From: an uncultured Prevotella sp.
GTDB lineage: Bacteria > Bacteroidota > Bacteroidia > Bacteroidales > Bacteroidaceae
NCBI GenBank assembly: GCA_938018155.1
Contig: CALIIG010000201.1
Coordinates: forward strand, 1 to 18,084
Reading direction: 5' to 3'
DNA length: 18,084 nucleotides
In this document: one piece after another, positions 2,205 through 18,084 of the stretch
How the letters are laid out: every line of letters starts with the position of its first letter
How positions within the stretch are numbered: position 1 is the stretch's first letter
The notes under the pieces: generated by a model
Told to the model about the DNA's origin: nothing
What the model saw: only the letters and a program-made list of their open reading frames with translations
Databases searched by the model: none
Position numbers and translations under genes: made by a program

Positions 2205-5200
2205 TTACTGTTGCTCTATTTGTCCACCCTTTCCCACGTAAGTGCGGTAGAAATTATCGAGTTGTGCTTTCTGCCTGGCAGCGAGTTTACGGTCAACCAG
2301 TGACGTAACGGTGCGAACCTGGTCCAGTATTGACATCTGAACGAGGCAGTCGTGCTGGGCCTGTATGAAGCGAATGCCGGTCAGCGACTGATAGTAACGC
2401 TCATACTGTGCAGCGTCGTTCCAGATGGCGTTGATGCATTTGAGCGCCTCTTTCTTCTGTCCAAGCAGAGCGTAAGCCTTGGCTATGTCGGTTCCTCCGC
2501 TCATATAGTTCATCGGAACATTGTATACAGGAATCTCCTTTGCAGCCTTTTGCAGCACCTTCAAGGCTTTATCTTTCTTGCCTTCGCCAATGAGTTGCAA
2601 AGCGAGCTGCCCGAAAAGCCTGCGGTGTGTGTAGCACATCCGCATCACAGTCTCGTCTATATAAAGGCCCGGACGGCTTAAACCGCCATACTTGTAGCGC
2701 GTCATCATGTTGCGATATGTCTTTTCAGTGTCGAAGTTTTTGGTGCCTTTCCTGTTCGTTGTGAACGGAGTGATGCGGTTTGCCAGACCTTCTTGTATGA
2801 AGTTGTCGCCGAGATTCATGTAGTTTTCCGGCCCGACAGACAGCGCTACATATACCGGACGCGTCCAGTTACACTGCGAAATCATCTCCAACATCATCAG
2901 ATCGCCCTTGTAAAGAGCGTTCTTTCCCGCAAGCGAAATGACCATACGGTCGGGTATTGTGTCGCTGGCCATCATCATTCCACTGCGTTTTACGGCCTCC
3001 TTGTCGGTGGTGACGTAGAGCGTATCGGTAGGAATGACGTGCATATCGTTGTTCTTTGAGCGAACCCAATACTTCATAATGTTCTTCACTTCAAACGGAT
3101 TGTCGCCGAACTGTGCACGTGCTGCCGCAGGATTCTGCTTGTAGAAGTCGAGTATTTGTTGCTTTAACGCAGGGTTTACCTCCACATATTCGTTGGTTCC
3201 CGAACAGTAATCGAGACGTGGCCACGAGATAGGAACGGCCGGAGAATTGTATGCAGGGCGCTTCATCTGGTCGATATACCAGTCGGTTTGCAGGTAACTG
3301 AGGTTGCAGACACGTGCATCGGTGCGCACGCCCTCAACGTCCTGGTTATACCATAACGGGAAAGTGTCGTTGTCTCCATTGGTAAAAATAACGGGCGCAC
3401 CCTTGTCCTGGAGTGTCATTAAGTAGTTTTGGCCGAAGTCGCGACAGGTATATCGTCCTGACCTGTCGTGGTCATCCCACGTCTGGCTCACCATCTGGAC
3501 GGGCACTAACAGGCATAACAGCGCAGCAATGCTACTTACCAACGTTCCGTGAAGCTTCAGGTATTTGTTGAGCAAATCGATGACAGCTGCTACACCTATG
3601 CCGCACCAGATGGCGTAAGCATAGAACGAACCTGCGTAGGCATAATCGCGTTCGCGTGGCTGTACCGGCGTTTGGTTCAGATAAATAACTATGGCAAGCC
3701 CCGTCATAAAGAAGAGAAAAGCCACCACCCAGAACTGTCTGATGCCGCGTTTACCGCGAAAAGCCTGCCAGAACAAGCCGATGAGGCCCAGCAACAACGG
3801 CATACAGTAGAACACGTTATGTCCTTTGTTGGTCTTCAATTCGTCAGGAAGCATGTCCTGATTGCCCAGCCTTGCATCGTCAAGAGGCTTAATACCTGTT
3901 ATCCAGTTGCCGTGTTCCAGCTCGCCATTACCCTGTATATCGTTCTGCCTTCCGGCGAAATTCCACATGAAATAACGCCAGTACATAAAGTTACACTGGT
4001 AGGAAAGGAAGAACCTGATGTTGTCAAGCTGCGACGGCATCTTCACCGTCATCTGCTCTCCACATCGGTCATAGGGAACCTCTGTGCCCTCAACGCCGCC
4101 CATCCACGACTCATAGTCCTGTGTGTGCGCCTGATCGTACATGCGAGGGAACAGCATATTCTGGGCGTATTTGTACTTATTCTTGTGCGAAACAACAAAG
4201 TAAGAGTCTTTCTCATCCTTTGTTTTCTTTTCCTTTCGACTGTAAATAGGCGCACCTTCCGACATTTCGGGCTTGCATATATTGCCATCTGTCTTCAGGG
4301 CTACCTGCGAAGTGTAGGCCTGCCCGTACAGTAAGGGGCGGTCTCCATACTGGTCACGGCTCAGGTAAGAACCGAGCGTGAAGATGTCTTCCGGCGAATT
4401 CTGATCCATTGGAGGGTTGGCAACCGAGCGAATTACGATGAGCGCGTAGCTCGAATAGCCTATCATCAGCATCAGCATACACAGCAGAGCCGTATTCTTC
4501 AGGCGGGCCGAAACCAGGTATTCGGGCCGTTTGTTGACGGTTTTCTTATAGTTAAGCAAGAAGCCGACAATGCCCAGAACGATGATTCCGATAATAACCG
4601 CACTCCATCCATAGCCGTAGAATGGTATGCCGATGAGGCCAAAGGCAACGAGGAACGATATATTTTCACGCTTTTTATTGCGGTCAACGTAGCTCTCGTA
4701 GATGGCCCACAGCACGGCTGCCACAAGAAGGGCAATGTAAATAACAAGCCCTGTGTTGAAAGGAAGACCCAGAACGTTGACAAACAGCAGCTCAAACCAT
4801 CCGCCAACAGTTACAATTCCCGGTACGACGCCGTAGAGAACGGCTGCCACTAAGGCAAACGAAATCATCAGTGCCACCAGCGAACCTTTGGCCTCGACGT
4901 TGGGAAAACGGCGGTAGCAGTAAACCAACACGATGGCCGGCAGGCACAACAGGTTCAGCAAATGCACGCCAATGCTCAACCCCGTCATGTAAAATATCAG
5001 CACTAACCATCGGTCAGAGTGAGGCTCATCGGCGTGATCCTCCCACTTTAATATAAGCCAAAACACAATGGCTGTGAAAGCAGAGGAGTAGGCGTACACC
5101 TCACCCTCGACGGCAGAAAACCAGAATGTGTCAGACCATGTGTAGATAAGCGCGCCCACTAAGCCGCTGGCCTCAATGGCAATTAGCTTTGAGGTGGTTA

Positions 5201-5534
5201 GCTCGCTCCAGTTGTTCAGAACGAGTTTGCGTGTAAGGTGCGTAATTGTCCAAAACAGAAACAGGATGGTGGTGGCCGAGAGCAGTGCGCTCATCGTGTT
5301 TACCATACGCGCAACCTGACTGGGATCGCTTACAAAATGGCTGAAAAGGTTAGCCGTCAACATAAAGAACGGTGCCCCCGGCGGGTGTCCTATTTGAAGT
5401 TTATAACCCGTATCAATAAACTCCGGGCAGTCCCAGAACGAGGCTGTAGGTTCAATTGTGGAGCAGTAGGTGTAGGCAGCGATGATAAACGCCACCCATC
5501 CCAGCACATTGTCCACTAATCTGTACTGTTTCAT
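2205..5534 (-). CDS. DUF2723 / GT117 family membrane protein (TMEM260-like)
   Basis: A 1109-residue multi-pass inner-membrane protein. The N-terminus runs straight into a helix (about 9-27) and then the signature WDCPEF (34-39) and GHPPGAPFF (49-57), the hallmark of DUF2723 (Pfam PF11028), a GT-C fold group that includes human TMEM260, a protein O-mannosyltransferase assigned to CAZy GT117. Asp35 and Glu38 sit in the first external loop, where GT-C enzymes keep catalytic acids. Hydrophobic helices fill about 10-330, 345-370 and 575-685; a hydrophilic loop (about 370-570) separates the last blocks. NQTPVQPRERDYAYAGSF (620-637) is another recognisable family block. The remaining ~420 residues are soluble, with DNDTFPLWY (721-729) and a TPR-like helical repeat near 981-1045. 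By analogy it would glycosylate exported proteins using a lipid-linked sugar, but the bacterial substrate is inference. It begins at the only sensible ATG, 41 bases from a -7 box. Confidence 0.85.
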   Translation of the reverse strand: MKQYRLVDNVLGWVAFIIAAYTYCSTIEPTASFWDCPEFIDTGYKLQIGHPPGAPFFMLTANLFSHFVSDPSQVARMVNTMSALLSATTILFLFWTITHLTRKLVLNNWSELTTSKLIAIEASGLVGALIYTWSDTFWFSAVEGEVYAYSSAFTAIVFWLILKWEDHADEPHSDRWLVLIFYMTGLSIGVHLLNLLCLPAIVLVYCYRRFPNVEAKGSLVALMISFALVAAVLYGVVPGIVTVGGWFELLFVNVLGLPFNTGLVIYIALLVAAVLWAIYESYVDRNKKRENISFLVAFGLIGIPFYGYGWSAVIIGIIVLGIVGFLLNYKKTVNKRPEYLVSARLKNTALLCMLMLMIGYSSYALIVIRSVANPPMDQNSPEDIFTLGSYLSRDQYGDRPLLYGQAYTSQVALKTDGNICKPEMSEGAPIYSRKEKKTKDEKDSYFVVSHKNKYKYAQNMLFPRMYDQAHTQDYESWMGGVEGTEVPYDRCGEQMTVKMPSQLDNIRFFLSYQCNFMYWRYFMWNFAGRQNDIQGNGELEHGNWITGIKPLDDARLGNQDMLPDELKTNKGHNVFYCMPLLLGLIGLFWQAFRGKRGIRQFWVVAFLFFMTGLAIVIYLNQTPVQPRERDYAYAGSFYAYAIWCGIGVAAVIDLLNKYLKLHGTLVSSIAALLCLLVPVQMVSQTWDDHDRSGRYTCRDFGQNYLMTLQDKGAPVIFTNGDNDTFPLWYNQDVEGVRTDARVCNLSYLQTDWYIDQMKRPAYNSPAVPISWPRLDYCSGTNEYVEVNPALKQQILDFYKQNPAAARAQFGDNPFEVKNIMKYWVRSKNNDMHVIPTDTLYVTTDKEAVKRSGMMMASDTIPDRMVISLAGKNALYKGDLMMLEMISQCNWTRPVYVALSVGPENYMNLGDNFIQEGLANRITPFTTNRKGTKNFDTEKTYRNMMTRYKYGGLSRPGLYIDETVMRMCYTHRRLFGQLALQLIGEGKKDKALKVLQKAAKEIPVYNVPMNYMSGGTDIAKAYALLGQKKEALKCINAIWNDAAQYERYYQSLTGIRFIQAQHDCLVQMSILDQVRTVTSLVDRKLAARQKAQLDNFYRTYVGKGGQIEQQ

Positions 5535-5574
5535 TTATCAGTATTAATAATTGTGTTATTGCAATAAATCAGTG

Positions 5575-5582
5575 CAAAGGTA
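5575..5582 (-). promoter_or_regulatory. -7 box of the DUF2723 gene
   Basis: Minus strand TACCTTTG, an exact match to the Bacteroidota -7 consensus TAnnTTTG. The predicted transcription start is near 5568, giving a leader of about 33 bases. No convincing TTTG is found 19-21 bases further upstream. The leader is AT-rich and has no Shine-Dalgarno sequence. Confidence 0.6.
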
Positions 5583-5811
5583 ATAAAAAGCCTGTATAGT
5601 GCCACCTTTTGCATGGGGTTTTTATAAAATTTAGGTATTAATACGATGTATTGGTTTGTATGCCTTCGCCATATCGTTTGAAGCGCGTTATTTATAGGTT
5701 TATTGAAGAACAGGTGGGCAGGTGGGGGCCTTTACGGCAGAACGATTTAAATATTTTTACGTTTCGTCTCATGGTAAATGTCGTAAGGGTAACGGGTTTA
5801 TATCATACGGG
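5583..5811. other. Gene-free stretch between the promoter and the palindromic repeat
   Basis: The full intergenic gap is 5535-5946. Apart from the -7 box at 5575-5582 and the repeat at 5812-5910, I see nothing I can support here. It is moderately AT-rich on the left, with a purine-rich patch carrying GGTGGGCAGGTGGGGG near 5714-5729. A plus-strand frame is open from 5651 to 5920, but I do not accept it as a gene (see rejected items). No tRNA-like fold was seen. Confidence 0.4.
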
Positions 5812-5910
5812 TCATTGTCTGGCGGCCGTCAGCAGCGCGTTCGACGGCCGTCGGACGATGGGTGTGACGGCCGTCAACAGCGCGTACGGCGGCCGCCGTA
5901 CAATGAGCAT
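5812..5910. repeat. GC-rich palindromic repeat, two 45-base units (REP/BIME-like)
   Basis: Two direct units of 45 bases, 5821-5865 and 5866-5910, match at 35 of 45 positions. Each holds two copies of the 10-base palindrome GACGGCCGTC or a close variant (5821-5830, 5843-5852, 5866-5875, 5888-5897) separated by AGCAGCGCGTTC or AACAGCGCGTAC. The last palindrome is enlarged to a perfect 18-base one, GTACGGCGGCCGCCGTAC (5884-5901). The whole is closed by 7-base inverted ends, TCATTGT (5812-5818) and ACAATGA (5900-5906), whose pairing continues into the GC arms. It lies 37 bases past the yqaA stop. The same unit recurs at 18042-18084. Tandem palindromic units in an intergenic 3' region resemble REP/BIME elements; function and mobility are not shown. 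Confidence 0.85.
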
Positions 5911-5916
5911 ATGCGC

Positions 5917-5935
5917 GTAAGGCCACGAGGCTTAC
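5917..5935 (-). other. Hairpin directly after the yqaA stop
   Basis: GTAAG (5917-5921) and CTTAC (5931-5935) pair, extended by CC/GG around an ACGA loop with one bulged G. It lies between the yqaA stop and the palindromic repeat. There is no U run on the minus strand, so it may be a 3' structure rather than a full terminator. Confidence 0.3.
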
Positions 5936-5946
5936 ACCTCAGAGAG

Positions 5947-6399
5947 TTATAGAAAAAGGCTTACACTGTAAATCAATACGATGTAACGCAATATCTTTCC
6001 GAGGCTTATGCTGATTAAAGATATAAAGATATTGCTGCGCATCAGGCCCAGTGCGATGGTTATGGCCGAGCCCATAACAGGTAGAAAGGCAAAAAATCCC
6101 ACCCACGCACCGTGCCCCGCCATGAACCGTTGTGCGCGGTCAAGGTCGGAACGCTTTACATGAAGGTAGCGTTCTATCCAGTCGAGGCGGCCCAACGACC
6201 CTATCCAGTAGTTGAACATACCGCCTGCAATATTTCCCGCCGAGCCGTAAACCACAAGTCCCACGGGCTGAAGCCCCGCAGCAAGCAAGGCTGTCATTAC
6301 CGTTTCGCTGCTGAAAGGGATGAAACTTCCGGCAAGAAACCCTACCAGAAACATGCCCGGATACCCATAGTTAATTAAAATATCGTTGAGGGCAGCCAT
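5947..6399 (-). CDS. yqaA: YqaA-type DedA/VTT membrane protein
   Basis: A 150-residue inner-membrane protein of the SNARE-associated/DedA (VTT) superfamily, closest in length and motifs to E. coli YqaA. Visible family marks are IPFSSETVM (27-35), GNIAGGMFNYWIGS (55-68), the LPVMGSAITIALGLMR segment (106-121, with the conserved Pro and Gly in the re-entrant region) and GKILRYI (134-140). DedA-superfamily proteins are linked to undecaprenyl-phosphate or phospholipid flipping and membrane homeostasis; the role of the YqaA branch is unknown. The ATG at 6399 overlaps the end of the preceding gene by 25 bases, so the two are almost certainly co-translated from one mRNA. It is slightly longer at its N-terminus than E. 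coli YqaA. It is the last gene of its operon, followed by a hairpin and the palindromic repeat. Confidence 0.85.
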   Translation of the reverse strand: MAALNDILINYGYPGMFLVGFLAGSFIPFSSETVMTALLAAGLQPVGLVVYGSAGNIAGGMFNYWIGSLGRLDWIERYLHVKRSDLDRAQRFMAGHGAWVGFFAFLPVMGSAITIALGLMRSNIFISLISISLGKILRYIVLIYSVSLFL

Positions 6400-7313
6400 A
6401 GGTTATAAGCGGTGACAAGCAATGAAACCAGCGTGATAAACAGAAAAAAGATATTGGAAAGCCGCGAGTGGGTAAACGTGATAAAATGACCGATGAGCGG
6501 AGCTGTAAAAATAATCATCATGCTTAACAAATTGTCGAAGTGTTGCGGTTGCAACACAATGAATATCAGACAGCATGCGTCAAGGGCGATGAACATTTCG
6601 TAAAACAGGCGTGTTTTAATGCGATCCTGATAGCTGTAAAGCAAAAAATGAACGGTCGCTGTTAAGGCTAACAGCGAAATAAAAACCAGTGTGACGAGGT
6701 GATGACCGTCAAGAGAGGCAAAGCAGAAAGGCTTTTCGAACTGTAAAAGCCCAATAAAGTGTTGTCCCAGAGCCTGCAGCGTGCCCGTGTAGGCATAATA
6801 GGCCGCTGTAAACCAGTAGGGAACGACAAGACCGATAAGCGATGCAGCCCACGTCTTCGGACTGAAATCCATAAGGTAAACAGCCATCATAATCCAGAGA
6901 ACGGGCGGGAAAAACAGAATCTGTATAAAGAAAATACTGGCCGTTCCGAGGGCAAGGAAAGCGTAAAAAACGCGTCCGGTAGCGTCCTGTTCCTGATAAG
7001 TGCCAAGCAACAACAGCAGTGCGGCAATGGCACACAGCTGTACAATGCCCGTGGTTACCGACTGTAAGAGGAACGACGACATCACCATCATAACCAAAAA
7101 CGAACACGTTATCATGTGGCCATAGACGCGAAGGAGTGAGTTTTCACTGTTAAGCCCGGCCATCATCAGGGCTGAAAGGGCAAGTATTGCTGACTGCAGC
7201 CACTGGTTTTCAGCAAGCATGTTTCCGGCAAGACAGGCTGCAAGGCAGCAGAGGGCGACGACGGGCAATGCCCATCTCGATTCGGCTATCTTGTTTTGTA
7301 AGCGTTTTGTCAT
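6375..7313 (-). CDS. Multi-pass membrane protein of unknown function
   Basis: 312 residues, almost entirely hydrophobic, with roughly nine to ten predicted membrane helices and a short basic N-terminus (MTKRLQNKIAESRW). I find no catalytic motif. The most polar parts are a loop around QFEKPFCFASLDGHH (about residues 192-206) and SYQDRIKTRLFYE (about 227-239). Genes of this type beside purD in other Bacteroidota are annotated DUF6427 or hypothetical; I think this is that family, but I recall it by context and general character rather than by a diagnostic motif. It overlaps yqaA by 25 bases and follows purD by 68 bases, with a hairpin between. The coupling suggests that it and YqaA act in the same membrane process. 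Confidence 0.8.
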   Translation of the reverse strand: MTKRLQNKIAESRWALPVVALCCLAACLAGNMLAENQWLQSAILALSALMMAGLNSENSLLRVYGHMITCSFLVMMVMSSFLLQSVTTGIVQLCAIAALLLLLGTYQEQDATGRVFYAFLALGTASIFFIQILFFPPVLWIMMAVYLMDFSPKTWAASLIGLVVPYWFTAAYYAYTGTLQALGQHFIGLLQFEKPFCFASLDGHHLVTLVFISLLALTATVHFLLYSYQDRIKTRLFYEMFIALDACCLIFIVLQPQHFDNLLSMMIIFTAPLIGHFITFTHSRLSNIFFLFITLVSLLVTAYNLWLPSTIF

Positions 7314-8662: not shown

Positions 8663-10873
8663 TTATTTGAGAAAGTCGAAGAAATAGCGCGAAATACGTT
8701 CGTGTAAGTGCGTAGACTGGTGTCCTCGCATATTGTGAGGTTCGCCCGGATAGACGAAAAGGTCGGGCTGTATGCCATCATTGATACACTGTTTTAAGAA
8801 CGAAAAGGTATGCTGCGGGAGCACAACGGGGTCGTTTAAGCCAATAATAATCTCTAAACGGCCCTTTAAATTCCTGGCTTTATTGATTAAACTTGTTGAC
8901 GCATAGCCCGCAGGATTGTCCTGAGGACGGTCCATATATCGCTCGCCATACATGATTTCGTACCACTTCCAGTCGATAACCGGCCCGCCTGCAACGCCTA
9001 CTTTAAATACGTCGGGGTAAGTAGTCATGAGGTTAATGGTCATAAAGCCGCCAAAACTCCATCCGTGAACGCCTAACTTGTTGGCATCAACATAAGGCAA
9101 ACTTTTCAGGAAGTCGACACCTTTCATCTGGTCTTGCATCTCTACATCGCCCAAATGGCGGAAGGTTACCTGCTCAAAATCGCGCCCTCTGTTTTCGCTT
9201 CCCCGATTATCAAGGATGAAAAGCAAGTACCCATTTTGCGCCATATAGGTCTCCCATGAGCGACTTCCCCAGTGCCAACGGGCGTCAACGTTGTGCGCGT
9301 GCGGGCCACCGTATACGTAAACAATGGCCGGATATTTTTTGTTTGGGTCGAAATGAAGAGGCATTACCATCCTGTAATAAAGGTCAGTATGGCCGTCAGC
9401 CGCCTTAATGGTGCCGCATTTATACTCGGGAACAGCATAGCCTTTCCATGGGTTTTCGGCAGTAAAGTAGCGCGTGCACTTCGCATTTTCGGTGTTTACA
9501 ATGGCTATATTACGCGGAATATCGGGTGCCGAGTAGCTGTCTGCCGCGTATTTCCCTGACGAACTAAGCTGCGCAGTGTGCCAGCCTATGCCGTTTTCGT
9601 CGATACGTGTGCGTATGCCCGTATCGACATTTACCGAGAAAATATTGCGCTGTATGGGGTTGCACTCGTTGGAAAGAATAATAATGGAGTGATTGTCGCG
9701 GTTGAATCCTACAACGTTTTCGACAACCCATGGGCCTTTTGTAAGCTGTTTGATGAGCTGTCCGTCCTTATTAAACAGGTATAAATGGTTGTAACCGTCG
9801 CGCTGACTTTGCAGAATAAACTTGTCGTTATCCCATGGGAGGAACTGGATGGGGTGCTGAGGTTCAACGTATTTTGCGTCGGTTTCGTGATAAAGCCCGG
9901 CTAACCGGTCGCCCGTTTCGGCATTGTAGCTTACCAATCTGCAGTCGTTCTGGTCGCGATTCAGCTCAAAAAGATAGATGGTTTTTGAATCAGGGCTCCA
10001 CGCTACGTTCGTAAAGTAGCGGTCGGTAGGGTCTCCTGCTTTCAGATATACGGTTTTATTGGTGAGCAAATTGTACACACCGATGGTTACTTTGTGCATG
10101 GATTCGCCCGCCATAGGATACTTAAAGGGGGCCGGTTTGGCCATACGCGTGCCGCTTTCAGGCTCATTTGCCGGTTCGGGAATATCGACAAGAGGATAGC
10201 TTGGCACCATACTCTGGTCCATTTTAGTAAATGCAAGCATCGTCCCGTCGGGGCTAAAGAAGGTACCTTTCGTGTATCCGAACTCGTTTTGATGTACGCT
10301 TTGTCCGTAAAGTACATCGCGCGAAGCGTCGGTTGACACCTGATGATCGTTGCCATTAGCGTCAATAACGTGCAACTGATAATCGTCAGGATTGACGTAT
10401 GCCGTAGCTTTCGACGTAGCATCCCAATCGGAATGAGAGAACCCTTGCGTCGATTGCGTCCATACAATCTTGTGTGTTTTGAAGTTGAAGAGCTGGCGAA
10501 GATGAGCATATTCAACCATTACGACAGGCTTATCGGCGTATGGAAAGGAAGCGTCGGCAAGGGTATGGAGTAAAGAGCCTTGCGTATTTCCTGCCCATTT
10601 GTTATATTGGTCAACAGTGAAAAGAATCTTTTCTTTGCCCGTTGACTTGTCAACGACGCTGCATTTATCCACATCAAGGTGCACCAAATTGTCGCCCCAC
10701 CAGGTAGTCCACCTGTTTTTGGGAATCATGTTATGGTAGTTTCTACCCCCGAAATTGAGGTCTTCGAGGGTAAAATGTTTCAGATTTTGCGCACTTGTCT
10801 GTTGCATAAATGGGTAACTTGCGAGGAAAACTATGGCAGTTAAAACCATAGTTGTGAGCTTAATCTTCATCAT
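8663..10873 (-). CDS. Exported S9B peptidase, prolyl tripeptidyl peptidase-like
   Basis: Serine exopeptidase that releases short peptides ending in proline from N-termini; in asaccharolytic oral Bacteroidales such enzymes feed peptide uptake. From the tandem ATG at 10873, 736 residues. A signal peptide (basic MMKIK, hydrophobic core, TSA cut site near residue 28) is followed by a beta-propeller domain and a C-terminal alpha/beta hydrolase. The catalytic triad is Ser606 in GWSFGG, Asp681 in GLNDPVV and His713 in EPHNMRG. Glu197 in HQNEFG and Glu639 in WYEIMYGER match the residues that hold the substrate amino group. As I recall P. gingivalis PtpA (732 residues; Ser603, Asp678, His710, Glu205, Glu636), the C-terminal residues line up at a constant offset of 3, so PtpA is a better match than DPP IV. 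The frame is open 93 codons further upstream, but that part overlaps the methyltransferase tail and would bury the signal peptide. The start overlaps the methyltransferase stop by 14 bases. Confidence 0.88.
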   Translation of the reverse strand: MMKIKLTTMVLTAIVFLASYPFMQQTSAQNLKHFTLEDLNFGGRNYHNMIPKNRWTTWWGDNLVHLDVDKCSVVDKSTGKEKILFTVDQYNKWAGNTQGSLLHTLADASFPYADKPVVMVEYAHLRQLFNFKTHKIVWTQSTQGFSHSDWDATSKATAYVNPDDYQLHVIDANGNDHQVSTDASRDVLYGQSVHQNEFGYTKGTFFSPDGTMLAFTKMDQSMVPSYPLVDIPEPANEPESGTRMAKPAPFKYPMAGESMHKVTIGVYNLLTNKTVYLKAGDPTDRYFTNVAWSPDSKTIYLFELNRDQNDCRLVSYNAETGDRLAGLYHETDAKYVEPQHPIQFLPWDNDKFILQSQRDGYNHLYLFNKDGQLIKQLTKGPWVVENVVGFNRDNHSIIILSNECNPIQRNIFSVNVDTGIRTRIDENGIGWHTAQLSSSGKYAADSYSAPDIPRNIAIVNTENAKCTRYFTAENPWKGYAVPEYKCGTIKAADGHTDLYYRMVMPLHFDPNKKYPAIVYVYGGPHAHNVDARWHWGSRSWETYMAQNGYLLFILDNRGSENRGRDFEQVTFRHLGDVEMQDQMKGVDFLKSLPYVDANKLGVHGWSFGGFMTINLMTTYPDVFKVGVAGGPVIDWKWYEIMYGERYMDRPQDNPAGYASTSLINKARNLKGRLEIIIGLNDPVVLPQHTFSFLKQCINDGIQPDLFVYPGEPHNMRGHQSTHLHERISRYFFDFLK

Positions 10874-12389
10874 TGAATCGTCTGTTCTTACCAAATTTCT
10901 GTGCGTCTCTGCGGCCGTTTCCACCTTTAAAGCCTTTACCCGGATGGCCTTTAGAGCCGTTTCGGCCCTTAAAATCGTCGTGTTTTTTGAAGCCTTTGTG
11001 TGATTTCGAATCGTCATTATCCCATGAACTGTCGTGGTTTCTGCGATTTTCGCGGCCCTTATATGATTCACGTTCCTTTGAACCGTAGAGTTTTGATTCG
11101 AACGAATGGAACTTAAACGAACGAATATCGCCCTCTTCGTTGGCCTCTTCACCCTCTAATCGCTCCTTAAATTCGCGGTTTTTCTTAAATCGGTGCTTTT
11201 GTGCCATCTCGCGTTTCTCGTCATCAGTCTTCACGATGCCGCCTTCAGAGCGGAACGAATTCATCTTTCCTTCAAAGAGAGTATATTTGCGAAGCTCACA
11301 CTCTAAGCTGCCATTGTAGAGCGGTATCTTAATACTCGGCTTTAAACCAACCTGATCAAAGCACTCCTCCTTATATGATAAGATCCAGGCTTCATTTCCT
11401 CCAAACTCGTGCTTTAGCCTTTCACCTATCATACGATACGTGCCAAGGAGGTTGGGAGTAGAGATGCGTTCTCCGTAAGGTGGGTTCATAACGATGAGGC
11501 TTTTCGACGTTGGCTTCGTAAAATCCTTAAAGTCTTGCTGCTCAATGGTGATGTTTTTTGACAATCCTGCCGCTTTTACGTTGAGGCGTGCAGTGTTTAC
11601 AGCCTTCATATCTACATCGTAACCGTAGATATGATGCGTAAATTCGCGCTCCTGACTATCATCATTATAGATCTCGTCAAAAAGCTTTTGGTCGAAGTCT
11701 GGCCACTTTTCGAAGGCAAATTCCTTGCGGAAAACACCAGGCGATATGTTGCGGGCTATGAGTGCTGCTTCAATAGTGATGGTGCCAGAACCACACATGG
11801 GGTCGATGAAATCGCAATCACCTTTCCACCCTGTCATCATAATGATACCGGCTGCCAATACCTCATTGAGGGGTGCTTCCACGCTTTCCTGACGATAACC
11901 ACGTCGGTGAAGGCTCTCGCCAGAAGAGTCGAGGCAGAGCGTTGCCTGCTCATCGGCGATATGAATATGAAGCCGTATATCAGGATTACTGACAGAAATG
12001 TTCGGTCTTTCGCCCGTTTTCTCTCTGAATTGGTCAACAATAGCGTCCTTTACTTTATAGGTAACGAATCGCGAATTACGAAATTCTTCCGAATAAACTA
12101 CAGAGTCAACGGCGAACGTTTTCCCTTTTTCGATGTACTGATTCCAGTCTATTTTGTGAATCTCATCGTAAACTTCTTCGGCCGAATGCGCTTTAAAGTG
12201 CTTGATGGGCTTTAGTATTCGTATTGCGGTATGCAACTGAAAGTTGGCACGGTACATCATAGCCTTGTCGCCTGTAAATGATACCATGCGGCGCCCTATT
12301 AGTACATTGTTTGCACCCAGTTGGGTAAGCTCTTGTGCCAAAACGGGTTCTAATCCCATAAAAGTTTTAGCGATGAGTTCAAATTCCAT
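10860..12389 (-). CDS. rlmL: THUMP-domain RNA methyltransferase (RlmL-like) with basic tail
   Basis: SAM-dependent guanine-N2 methyltransferase, by family acting on 23S rRNA (E. coli RlmL modifies G2445). The N-terminal ferredoxin-like and THUMP region spans about 1-160, ending at LDSSGESLHRRGYR (153-166). The Rossmann-fold methyltransferase domain follows, with the SAM loop FIDPMCGSGTI (194-204), the acidic GYDVD (256-260) and the catalytic NPPYGER (302-308). The domain ends near residue 375. Residues about 385-509 form a highly charged, Lys/Arg/Gly/Asp-rich tail without predicted fold, which probably binds RNA; such tails are common in Bacteroidota members and absent from the E. coli core domain. 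The E. coli RlmK half is missing. The exact target base is inferred from family only. It lies 49 bases downstream of cysE and overlaps the peptidase start. Confidence 0.87.
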   Translation of the reverse strand: MEFELIAKTFMGLEPVLAQELTQLGANNVLIGRRMVSFTGDKAMMYRANFQLHTAIRILKPIKHFKAHSAEEVYDEIHKIDWNQYIEKGKTFAVDSVVYSEEFRNSRFVTYKVKDAIVDQFREKTGERPNISVSNPDIRLHIHIADEQATLCLDSSGESLHRRGYRQESVEAPLNEVLAAGIIMMTGWKGDCDFIDPMCGSGTITIEAALIARNISPGVFRKEFAFEKWPDFDQKLFDEIYNDDSQEREFTHHIYGYDVDMKAVNTARLNVKAAGLSKNITIEQQDFKDFTKPTSKSLIVMNPPYGERISTPNLLGTYRMIGERLKHEFGGNEAWILSYKEECFDQVGLKPSIKIPLYNGSLECELRKYTLFEGKMNSFRSEGGIVKTDDEKREMAQKHRFKKNREFKERLEGEEANEEGDIRSFKFHSFESKLYGSKERESYKGRENRRNHDSSWDNDDSKSHKGFKKHDDFKGRNGSKGHPGKGFKGGNGRRDAQKFGKNRRFNDED

Positions 12390-17936: not shown

Positions 17937-18036
17937 CAAAATTATAGATATTTGGAGCTGTTTTTCTTACAATATTTAACTGTAATGGTAAGGTTATACG
18001 GCCATAACATACTTGGGATTACAGGCAATTGGTTAC

Positions 18037-18084
18037 CGTCCGACGGCCGTCAGCAGCGTTGCTGACGGCCGTCGGACGATGGGT
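18037..18084. repeat. GC-rich palindromic repeat, second copy, cut by window edge
   Basis: A perfect 19-bp inverted repeat, CGTCCGACGGCCGTCAGCA (18037-18055) and its complement (18060-18078), with a four-base GCGT loop. From 18042 to the window end the 43 bases align without gaps to the first unit of the repeat at 5821, including an identical 15-mer (18044-18058 with 5823-5837) and an identical 21-mer (18064-18084 with 5843-5863). At 5.8 kb the same unit is followed by a second one, so this copy may continue past the window. It lies upstream of the activase promoter, in otherwise AT-rich DNA. Confidence 0.85.

Follow-up and report, generated by a model that had tools for sequence, protein, structure and literature searches.

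Intergenic tandem arrays of roughly three to five near-dyad units, with a period of exactly 22 bases, fixed unit spacing and genome-specific motifs make up a class of repeats in Bacteroidaceae and Prevotellaceae. One element of the window, that is, the whole 18,084-nt stretch of Prevotella DNA analyzed here, falls within this class by the 22/23/22-base steps between its dyads and by the period of 22 that TRF assigns to it, one step being off by a single base. As judged from sequence searches, the element appears private to its source in sequence and shares its architecture with many arrays of its relatives. We tentatively read these repeats, with a confidence that stops a little short of even, as species-specific repeats that have spread to scattered places and consist of twofold-symmetric sites, arrayed in phase, for a predicted DNA-binding protein.

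Layout and setting of the element

Recomputation bore out the layout described in an earlier note on this DNA, namely two direct units of ~45 bases that contain four dyads of 10 bases each and are bordered by inverted ends of 7 bases (Table 1). The direct repeat is real, with 82% identity between the 44-base stretches 5817-5860 and 5862-5905 at a spacing of 45. However, the 45-base unit proposed in that note has a finer period, as revealed by both TRF (period 22, 3.3 copies, just 65% matches) and the half-unit parse; the basic period is 22/23, and 45 corresponds to two such units. The half-units alternate in orientation, each opening with CCGYC followed by six bases. The outer ones bear CCGCC together with an ACAA running into TGA and so differ from most inner half-units, CCGCC being also present in half-unit 7. 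Allowing one mismatch at most, we counted five occurrences of GACGGCCGTC across the window, including two that belong to the second copy described below; 0.39 were expected, and none of 200 shuffles had as many. Similarly, perfect 10-base palindromes follow one another at distances of 21-24 bases in a chain of three in the window and of no more than two in 100 shuffles, these values being five and four when one mismatched pair is permitted. GC content is 0.67 across 5800-5899, as compared with 0.31-0.45 in the adjoining intergenic DNA. A CRISPR array was rejected as the identity of the element, since its units abut or are joined by linkers of a few bases rather than separated by unique spacers of about repeat length.

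Table 1. Features of the window element, its second copy and flanking genes, and arrays next to RAYT-like genes (positions in the window, or in the named locus)
Feature	Positions	Strand	Details
Whole element	5812..5906	.	four dyads / eight ~11-base half-units plus inverted ends
Terminal arm TCATTGT	5812..5818	+	
Terminal arm ACAATGA	5900..5906	+	inverted copy of 5812-5818
Dyad 1 GGCGGCCGTC	5821..5830	.	centre 5825/5826
Dyad 2 GACGGCCGTC	5843..5852	.	step 22 from dyad 1
Dyad 3 GACGGCCGTC	5866..5875	.	step 23 from dyad 2
Dyad 4 GGCGGCCGCC	5888..5897	.	step 22 from dyad 3
Half-unit 1 CCGCCAGACAA	5815..5825	-	
Half-unit 2 CCGTCAGCAGC	5826..5836	+	
Half-unit 3 CCGTCGAACGC	5837..5847	-	
Half-unit 4 CCGTCGGACGA	5848..5858	+	
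Half-unit 5 CCGTCACACCCA	5859..5870	-	12 bases, giving the 23-base step
Half-unit 6 CCGTCAACAGC	5871..5881	+	
Half-unit 7 CCGCCGTACGC	5882..5892	-	
Half-unit 8 CCGCCGTACAA	5893..5903	+	
Second copy of the repeat	18031..18084	+	half-units CCGTCGGACGG (-), CCGTCAGCAGC (+), CCGTCAGCAAC (-), CCGTCGGACGA (+); cut by window end
VTT-domain gene ('yqaA' of the earlier note)	5947-6399	-	Pfam 33.6 bits, just under the cut-off of 33.9
TMEM260-like gene (DUF2723 of the earlier note)	2205-5534	-	PF11028
Arrays near RAYT-like gene, L089	525-695; 1940-2080		period 22; period 44
Array near RAYT-like gene, L090	1042-1256		period 66
Array near G006 RAYT gene, L092	828-885		period 22, dispersed F2 family, 616 bases from match

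The repeat of 5812-5906 is present at two loci within 18 kb and is therefore dispersed; this second locus and the intergenic position sustain the earlier idea of a dispersed repeat that is no part of a gene. The left ends of the two copies are unlike (TCATTGT versus GGTTA). The stretch 18064-18084 is a 21-base exact copy of 5843-5863 at whose end the window terminates precisely, which suggests a contig break at the repeat.

We then looked for the same sequence beyond the window. The relatives' set consisted of 80 loci kept out of at least 598 stretches matching the TMEM260-like gene. A covariance model of the unit, a search put forward in the earlier note, was built from three units and run on the window and 61 of these loci; it matched the two places of the window, i.e., its training set, and no further one. 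The best blastn hit of the element to the 80 loci had an E value of 0.16, so the sequence is absent from them, and matches to phages (8 records) and plasmids (9 records) were weak (E 0.1-0.4), none covering 80%. Scanning of viral contigs with one strict pattern yielded zero matches, as did searches of 21 genomes and of 61 genomes of the phylum, and weak matches in 7 of 399 genomes of the family, where 8 places were checked by eye, were judged chance. A scan of 81 sources for chains of palindromes with six-base arms retrieved the window alone, with a stringency too high for degenerate relatives.

The array lies 40 bases beyond the stop of the VTT-domain gene and 277 bases upstream of the TMEM260-like gene, whose closest relatives are found in Prevotellaceae, at best with 78-79% amino-acid identity among the matches listed. 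In 38 of the 80 loci and in the window, the TMEM260-like gene is preceded on the same strand by a yqaA-like match at a distance of 2.5 kb at most; the gap between both genes has a median length of 123 bases (31 loci within 500) and spans 416 in the window. Four of these 39 sources (the window, L013, L021 and L076) carry a period-22 array in the gap, with motifs that look unrelated and, in L021, a weak array with an 11-base component. The remaining 35 have none, which marks the window array as a lineage-specific addition. In three further loci (L054, L060 and L075), where no yqaA match was found, the TMEM260-like gene is preceded by an array of period 22. Comparisons of orthologous gaps, of the kind envisaged in the earlier note, delivered array-free gaps but neither a clean empty site nor a target-site duplication; near relatives inspected for empty sites (~63-90% identity) have diverged too far for junctions to be placed.

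Other features of the window include a terminator-like 20-base inverted repeat at 2058-2118 (90% complementary, 21 bases between arms), located between a polysaccharide deacetylase gene and the TMEM260-like gene. Within 8663-12389, a DPP-IV-like ORF (8663-11152) overlaps an RlmL-like methyltransferase ORF (10860-12389), and the true start of the former probably lies further in.

Arrays of period 22 in related genomes

Among the 80 loci and the window, 37/132 intergenic tandem arrays have a period of exactly 22, versus 7/85 coding ones; the census took in arrays of period 10 at least, and those lying 50-90% inside reading frames were counted as neither intergenic nor coding. Rows of 22, 44 or 66 bases were evident in one or more arrays of 30 of the 80 loci, and a lag scan independent of TRF, covering 112 kb of intergenic and 1.42 Mb of coding DNA, uncovered 23 and two segments at lag 22, respectively. 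These loci also exhibit a smaller second excess of 13 intergenic arrays at period 14, and heptamer rows (7/14/21) were noticed in several of their arrays. Two 400-kb stretches of Prevotella sp. oral taxon 376 (G006) scored period 22 in 26/29 and 23/28 intergenic arrays, a Bacteroidaceae MAG (G340) in 20/46, with four more at 44, and Bacteroides fragilis (G417) in 7/13. The peak was not seen in a phylum-wide control (2/28 arrays in 681 kb, 36 of 40 stretches being usable). Stretches of 50 kb from Ensifer and Streptomyces, a comparison of little power, contained zero and one intergenic array, respectively, none at 22. Dyad symmetry of the consensus unit was significant (p<0.05) in 8/39 period-22 arrays of the 80 loci, 5/27 of G006, 3/7 of G417 and 13/22 of G340, as compared with 8/77 other intergenic and 7/88 coding arrays of the 80 loci.

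G006 harbors at least three motif families, usually with three or four units per array, and a two-unit pattern of family F1 occurs 81 times genome-wide versus zero for the reversed control. All unit spacings up to 60 bases equal 22 or 44 in F1 (37/37), F2 (39/39) and the G340 motif (30/30), with no other step in the 106 intervals of these three families. The 5-base linkers of F1 are of 26 different sequences in 35, with an identity of 0.51 within and 0.37 between arrays; those of F2 (2 bases) are of seven kinds in 37, and those of G340 (13 bases) all differ (29/29), yet are ~0.6 identical. Linker length is therefore held as sequence drifts, and the likeness within arrays indicates that inheritance through tandem duplication accounts for part of the fixed step. 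Slippage alone could be invoked here, with neutral minisatellites arising by replication at hairpin-prone seeds and 22 being set by replication geometry. In arrays of three units, corresponding halves (left-left, right-right) do in most cases resemble each other slightly more inside one array than across arrays; arrays of four units give a mixed picture. We nevertheless regard this as the least probable of the explanations considered, since a single motif is shared by tens of unlinked sites in G006, every interval conforms to 22 or 44, and the peak is missing from the phylum-wide sample.

Each genome studied has motifs of its own. Reading the sequence of relatives at three G340 gaps revealed, at the first, an array of another motif in G549, yet another in G554 and G564, and none evident in G561 and G555; at the second, no evident array in any of five relatives; and at the third, a different array in G554 and G564 and none evident in G549 and G555. 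For the array at 14403-14477 of L155, no array was seen in the matching gap of the five relatives in which this gap was recovered. Within the 80 loci, L064 and L067, with flanks 79-80% identical, bear 22-base arrays of different motifs in the same gap, and no array was evident in the partner in the remaining comparisons of this kind. In G340, a mixed array (L170, 6695-6821) passes without interruption from units of the main motif to units of a different one.

Folding, mobility and RAYT genes

The earlier note had pointed to two mutually exclusive folds of the element, either one hairpin per unit or a long pairing of the outer arms. The long-arm pairing (5812-5852 with 5866-5906) is 76% complementary, and the RNA fold of lowest energy adopts it, with outer arms that pair over 7 positions, one unpaired position and 11 more (-71.5 kcal/mol, z -7.8). 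The minus-strand RNA (-62.8 kcal/mol, z -6.7) and the DNA (z -6.9) also fold strongly. However, the notion that alternative folds are the point of the element found no support in related arrays. Mirrored variable positions pair less, not more, than shuffled ones in 58 F1 units (fraction of shuffles at or below the observed value, 0.027 and 0.013) and 64 F2 units (0.24, 0.12 and 0.001), the deficit being significant at some positions, and half-site pairing schemes across whole arrays gave no consistent support to local or global hairpins, the between-array level not being consistently exceeded. Such avoidance of pairing could stem from the instability of perfect palindromes. As far as the relatives tell, period-22 arrays are not hairpins selected as such; since the window copy folds strongly, an RNA role is conceivable for that copy.

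A general RNA-level function, with tandem hairpins serving as transcription terminator or 3' mRNA stabilizer, nonetheless seems distinctly unlikely to us. Its attractions are the strong folds just after the yqaA stop and the position of arrays nearer to 3' gene ends (median distance 77 bases) than to 5' ends (143). These are countered by the lack of covariation at pairing positions, by an exact 22-base step that hairpins do not need, by the 16/88 arrays located in divergent gaps, and by the terminator-like hairpins with T-runs that, as seen by eye, already precede the arrays in L155 and L214. An intrinsic terminator was specifically discarded for the window element by its sequence, which has no T-run after the array on either strand. 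Across the arrays, orientation relative to genes (53 co-oriented, 19 convergent, 16 divergent; 10 edge arrays dropped and three L006 arrays counted twice) shows no significant bias (p 0.21). Rfam returned a single sub-threshold match across 5500-6400 (mir-4859, 25.1 bits versus a gathering score of 100).

The main rival of the binding-site reading is mobile origin, and both may hold. It would make the element a non-autonomous MITE-like unit akin to BrickBuilt of Porphyromonas gingivalis, with end modules as transposase ends and the 22-base units as passengers devoid of cellular function. Several observations are compatible with such mobility, which the earlier note had also considered: dispersed copies in both the window and G006, the inverted ends of the window element and the end modules of G340, and the absence of arrays from the same gap of relatives at L155 and in most yqaA-DUF2723 pairs. 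In addition, the left flank of an array is more like the right flank of that array, taken as reverse complement, than like those of other arrays in the 80 loci (p 0.0005) and G006 (p 0.01), although not in G340 (p 0.64) or G417 (p 0.52). Yet the two window copies have unlike left ends, and an inward AAACRAC..A module, a motif chosen by eye from the very G340 arrays scored, marks just 16/48 array ends in that genome (outward in 3; 0.85 expected). Furthermore, the clean empty site with target duplication is lacking, and mobility alone would not hold spacing at 22 across motif families. On balance, we deem this origin unlikely as a full explanation, though a serious contender.

A further rival is a REP/BIME-like repeat whose spread would depend on a RAYT (TnpA-REP) transposase, in line with the earlier note, which likened the element to a BIME-like composite and suggested looking for a RAYT gene. 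PF01797 proteins were identified in 6/13 and 2/9 genomes, G006 included, but no match was found in the array-rich G340, G549, G554 and G564 or in B. fragilis G417, some of these being incomplete MAGs. Period-22/44/66 arrays occur within 1.5 kb of three of four RAYT loci (L089, L090 and L092; none in L091), 95-806 bases from the gene match, whereas random windows of equal size contained such arrays in 22/300 (80 loci), 53/300 (G006) and 82/300 (L062/L064/L067) cases. The L090 and L092 arrays lie inside predicted, possibly spurious, frames, and those of 44 and 66 bases depart from the simple 22-base dyad. From a sample of four loci, we take this proximity as a lead rather than a result. By eye, an inverted repeat, GGTGGAGCRAAGCGGAACC, seems to lie on both sides of the L092 RAYT gene (1497-1968); it is a candidate for the cognate repeat and differs from the 22-base arrays. 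A subclass of Bacteroidetes RAYT genes is described as having atypical structures at its flanks, with copies elsewhere (PMC6006769). The unpaired GTAG/CGTC tag of REPs is missing: CCGTC lies inside the dyads of the window element, and the F1, F2 and G340 motifs show no tag by eye. The kinship retains a palindromic intergenic repeat, apparently of high copy, with several families per genome and an F2 array beside the G006 gene, against which count the absent tag, the different repeat flanking that gene, the genomes without PF01797 and the paucity of RAYT loci. The link is weakened. The arrays at three of four loci led us to move this explanation from very improbable to improbable, and to lower the binding-site reading from an even chance to its present standing just below it.

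Phased dyads as candidate binding sites and their relation to known repeats

According to the binding-site reading, the window element would be one copy of a species-specific intergenic repeat, usually of three to four near-palindromic units at a strict 22-base step, that acts as double-stranded DNA. Every dyad would be the site of a predicted dimeric DNA-binding protein, and the step of 22 bases, about two helical turns, would place neighboring dimers on nearly the same face for cooperative binding along 65-90 bp. New arrays would originate by tandem duplication of the 22-base unit and be copied to other intergenic sites by some further route, with motif turnover between species perhaps occurring together with that of the protein. 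A fixed step combined with degenerate, near-symmetric half-sites would fit the need of cooperative dimers on one DNA face. Plasmid iterons, direct repeats ~22 bp apart that serve as cooperative protein-binding sites, offer a parallel, with the difference that they occupy one replication origin and the period-22 arrays many chromosomal sites. Against this reading, 22 is one base above two 10.5-bp turns, the window copy has a 23-base step, and many arrays lack significant dyad symmetry.

Known dispersed repeats share some of these traits, as far as the consulted parts of their descriptions go. Tandem direct repeats of 22 and 23 nt are described from P. gingivalis, the 22-nt ones being credited to the W83 genome paper, and BrickBuilt comprises a 23-nt array of up to 22.8 copies in a MITE, with a leader and a tail of up to 285 and 318 nt and IS5-type ends (GAGACC...) (PMC4596501). 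Like the repeats as described there, the window element is intergenic, dispersed and species-specific, with tandem 22/23-base units without spacers, inverted ends and predicted long stem-loops; unlike BrickBuilt, it has a 22/23-base period and four dyads, no long leader or tail recognized, and ends (TCATTGT/ACAATGA) other than the IS5-type ones of Table 2 in that paper. REP super-families bear unpaired GTAG or CGTC tags at the hairpin end, and CGTC REPs, without a dedicated transposase, are reported from five phyla including Bacteroidetes (PMC3733652). The arrays resemble REP/BIME (PMC3733652) in being short palindromic intergenic repeats, often in opposite orientation and, as the 81 two-unit F1 matches of G006 suggest, of high copy, and differ in the placement of CCGTC within the dyad, the untagged motifs of relatives and the fixed 22-base tandem step. 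Pneumococcal BOX, with reported effects on expression, is alike in its modular design, with end modules around a tandem array, but its boxA/boxC ends are about 50 nt long (PMC3049150). Within the consulted descriptions, none of these three combines a family-wide 22-base lock with motif turnover. A literature search by titles and abstract openings, with most subscription papers outside its reach, yielded no description of a family-wide period-22 class, and we file the element as a new variant among dispersed intergenic repeats.

Unit length fixed while sequence changes by species is predicted neither by slippage nor by ordinary REP biology, and in at least one Prevotella the majority of intergenic tandem repeats are period-22 arrays. 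Metagenome assemblies may also break at them, as the window end at a 21-base exact repeat copy would suggest. If the arrays are mobile, they would be a new kind of non-autonomous element, possibly tied to the little-known RAYT genes of Bacteroidetes. If they bind protein, they would disclose an unrecognized chromosome-wide DNA-binding system in Bacteroides and Prevotella. In its boldest version, which we hold to be unlikely but worth stating, each Bacteroidaceae genome would carry tens to hundreds (by extrapolation) of helically phased operator arrays, each made of three to four dyads of 22 bp and recognized by rapidly evolving predicted dimeric proteins that organize the chromosome or insulate transcription units, their sites being refilled with new motifs while the 22-bp geometry stays fixed.
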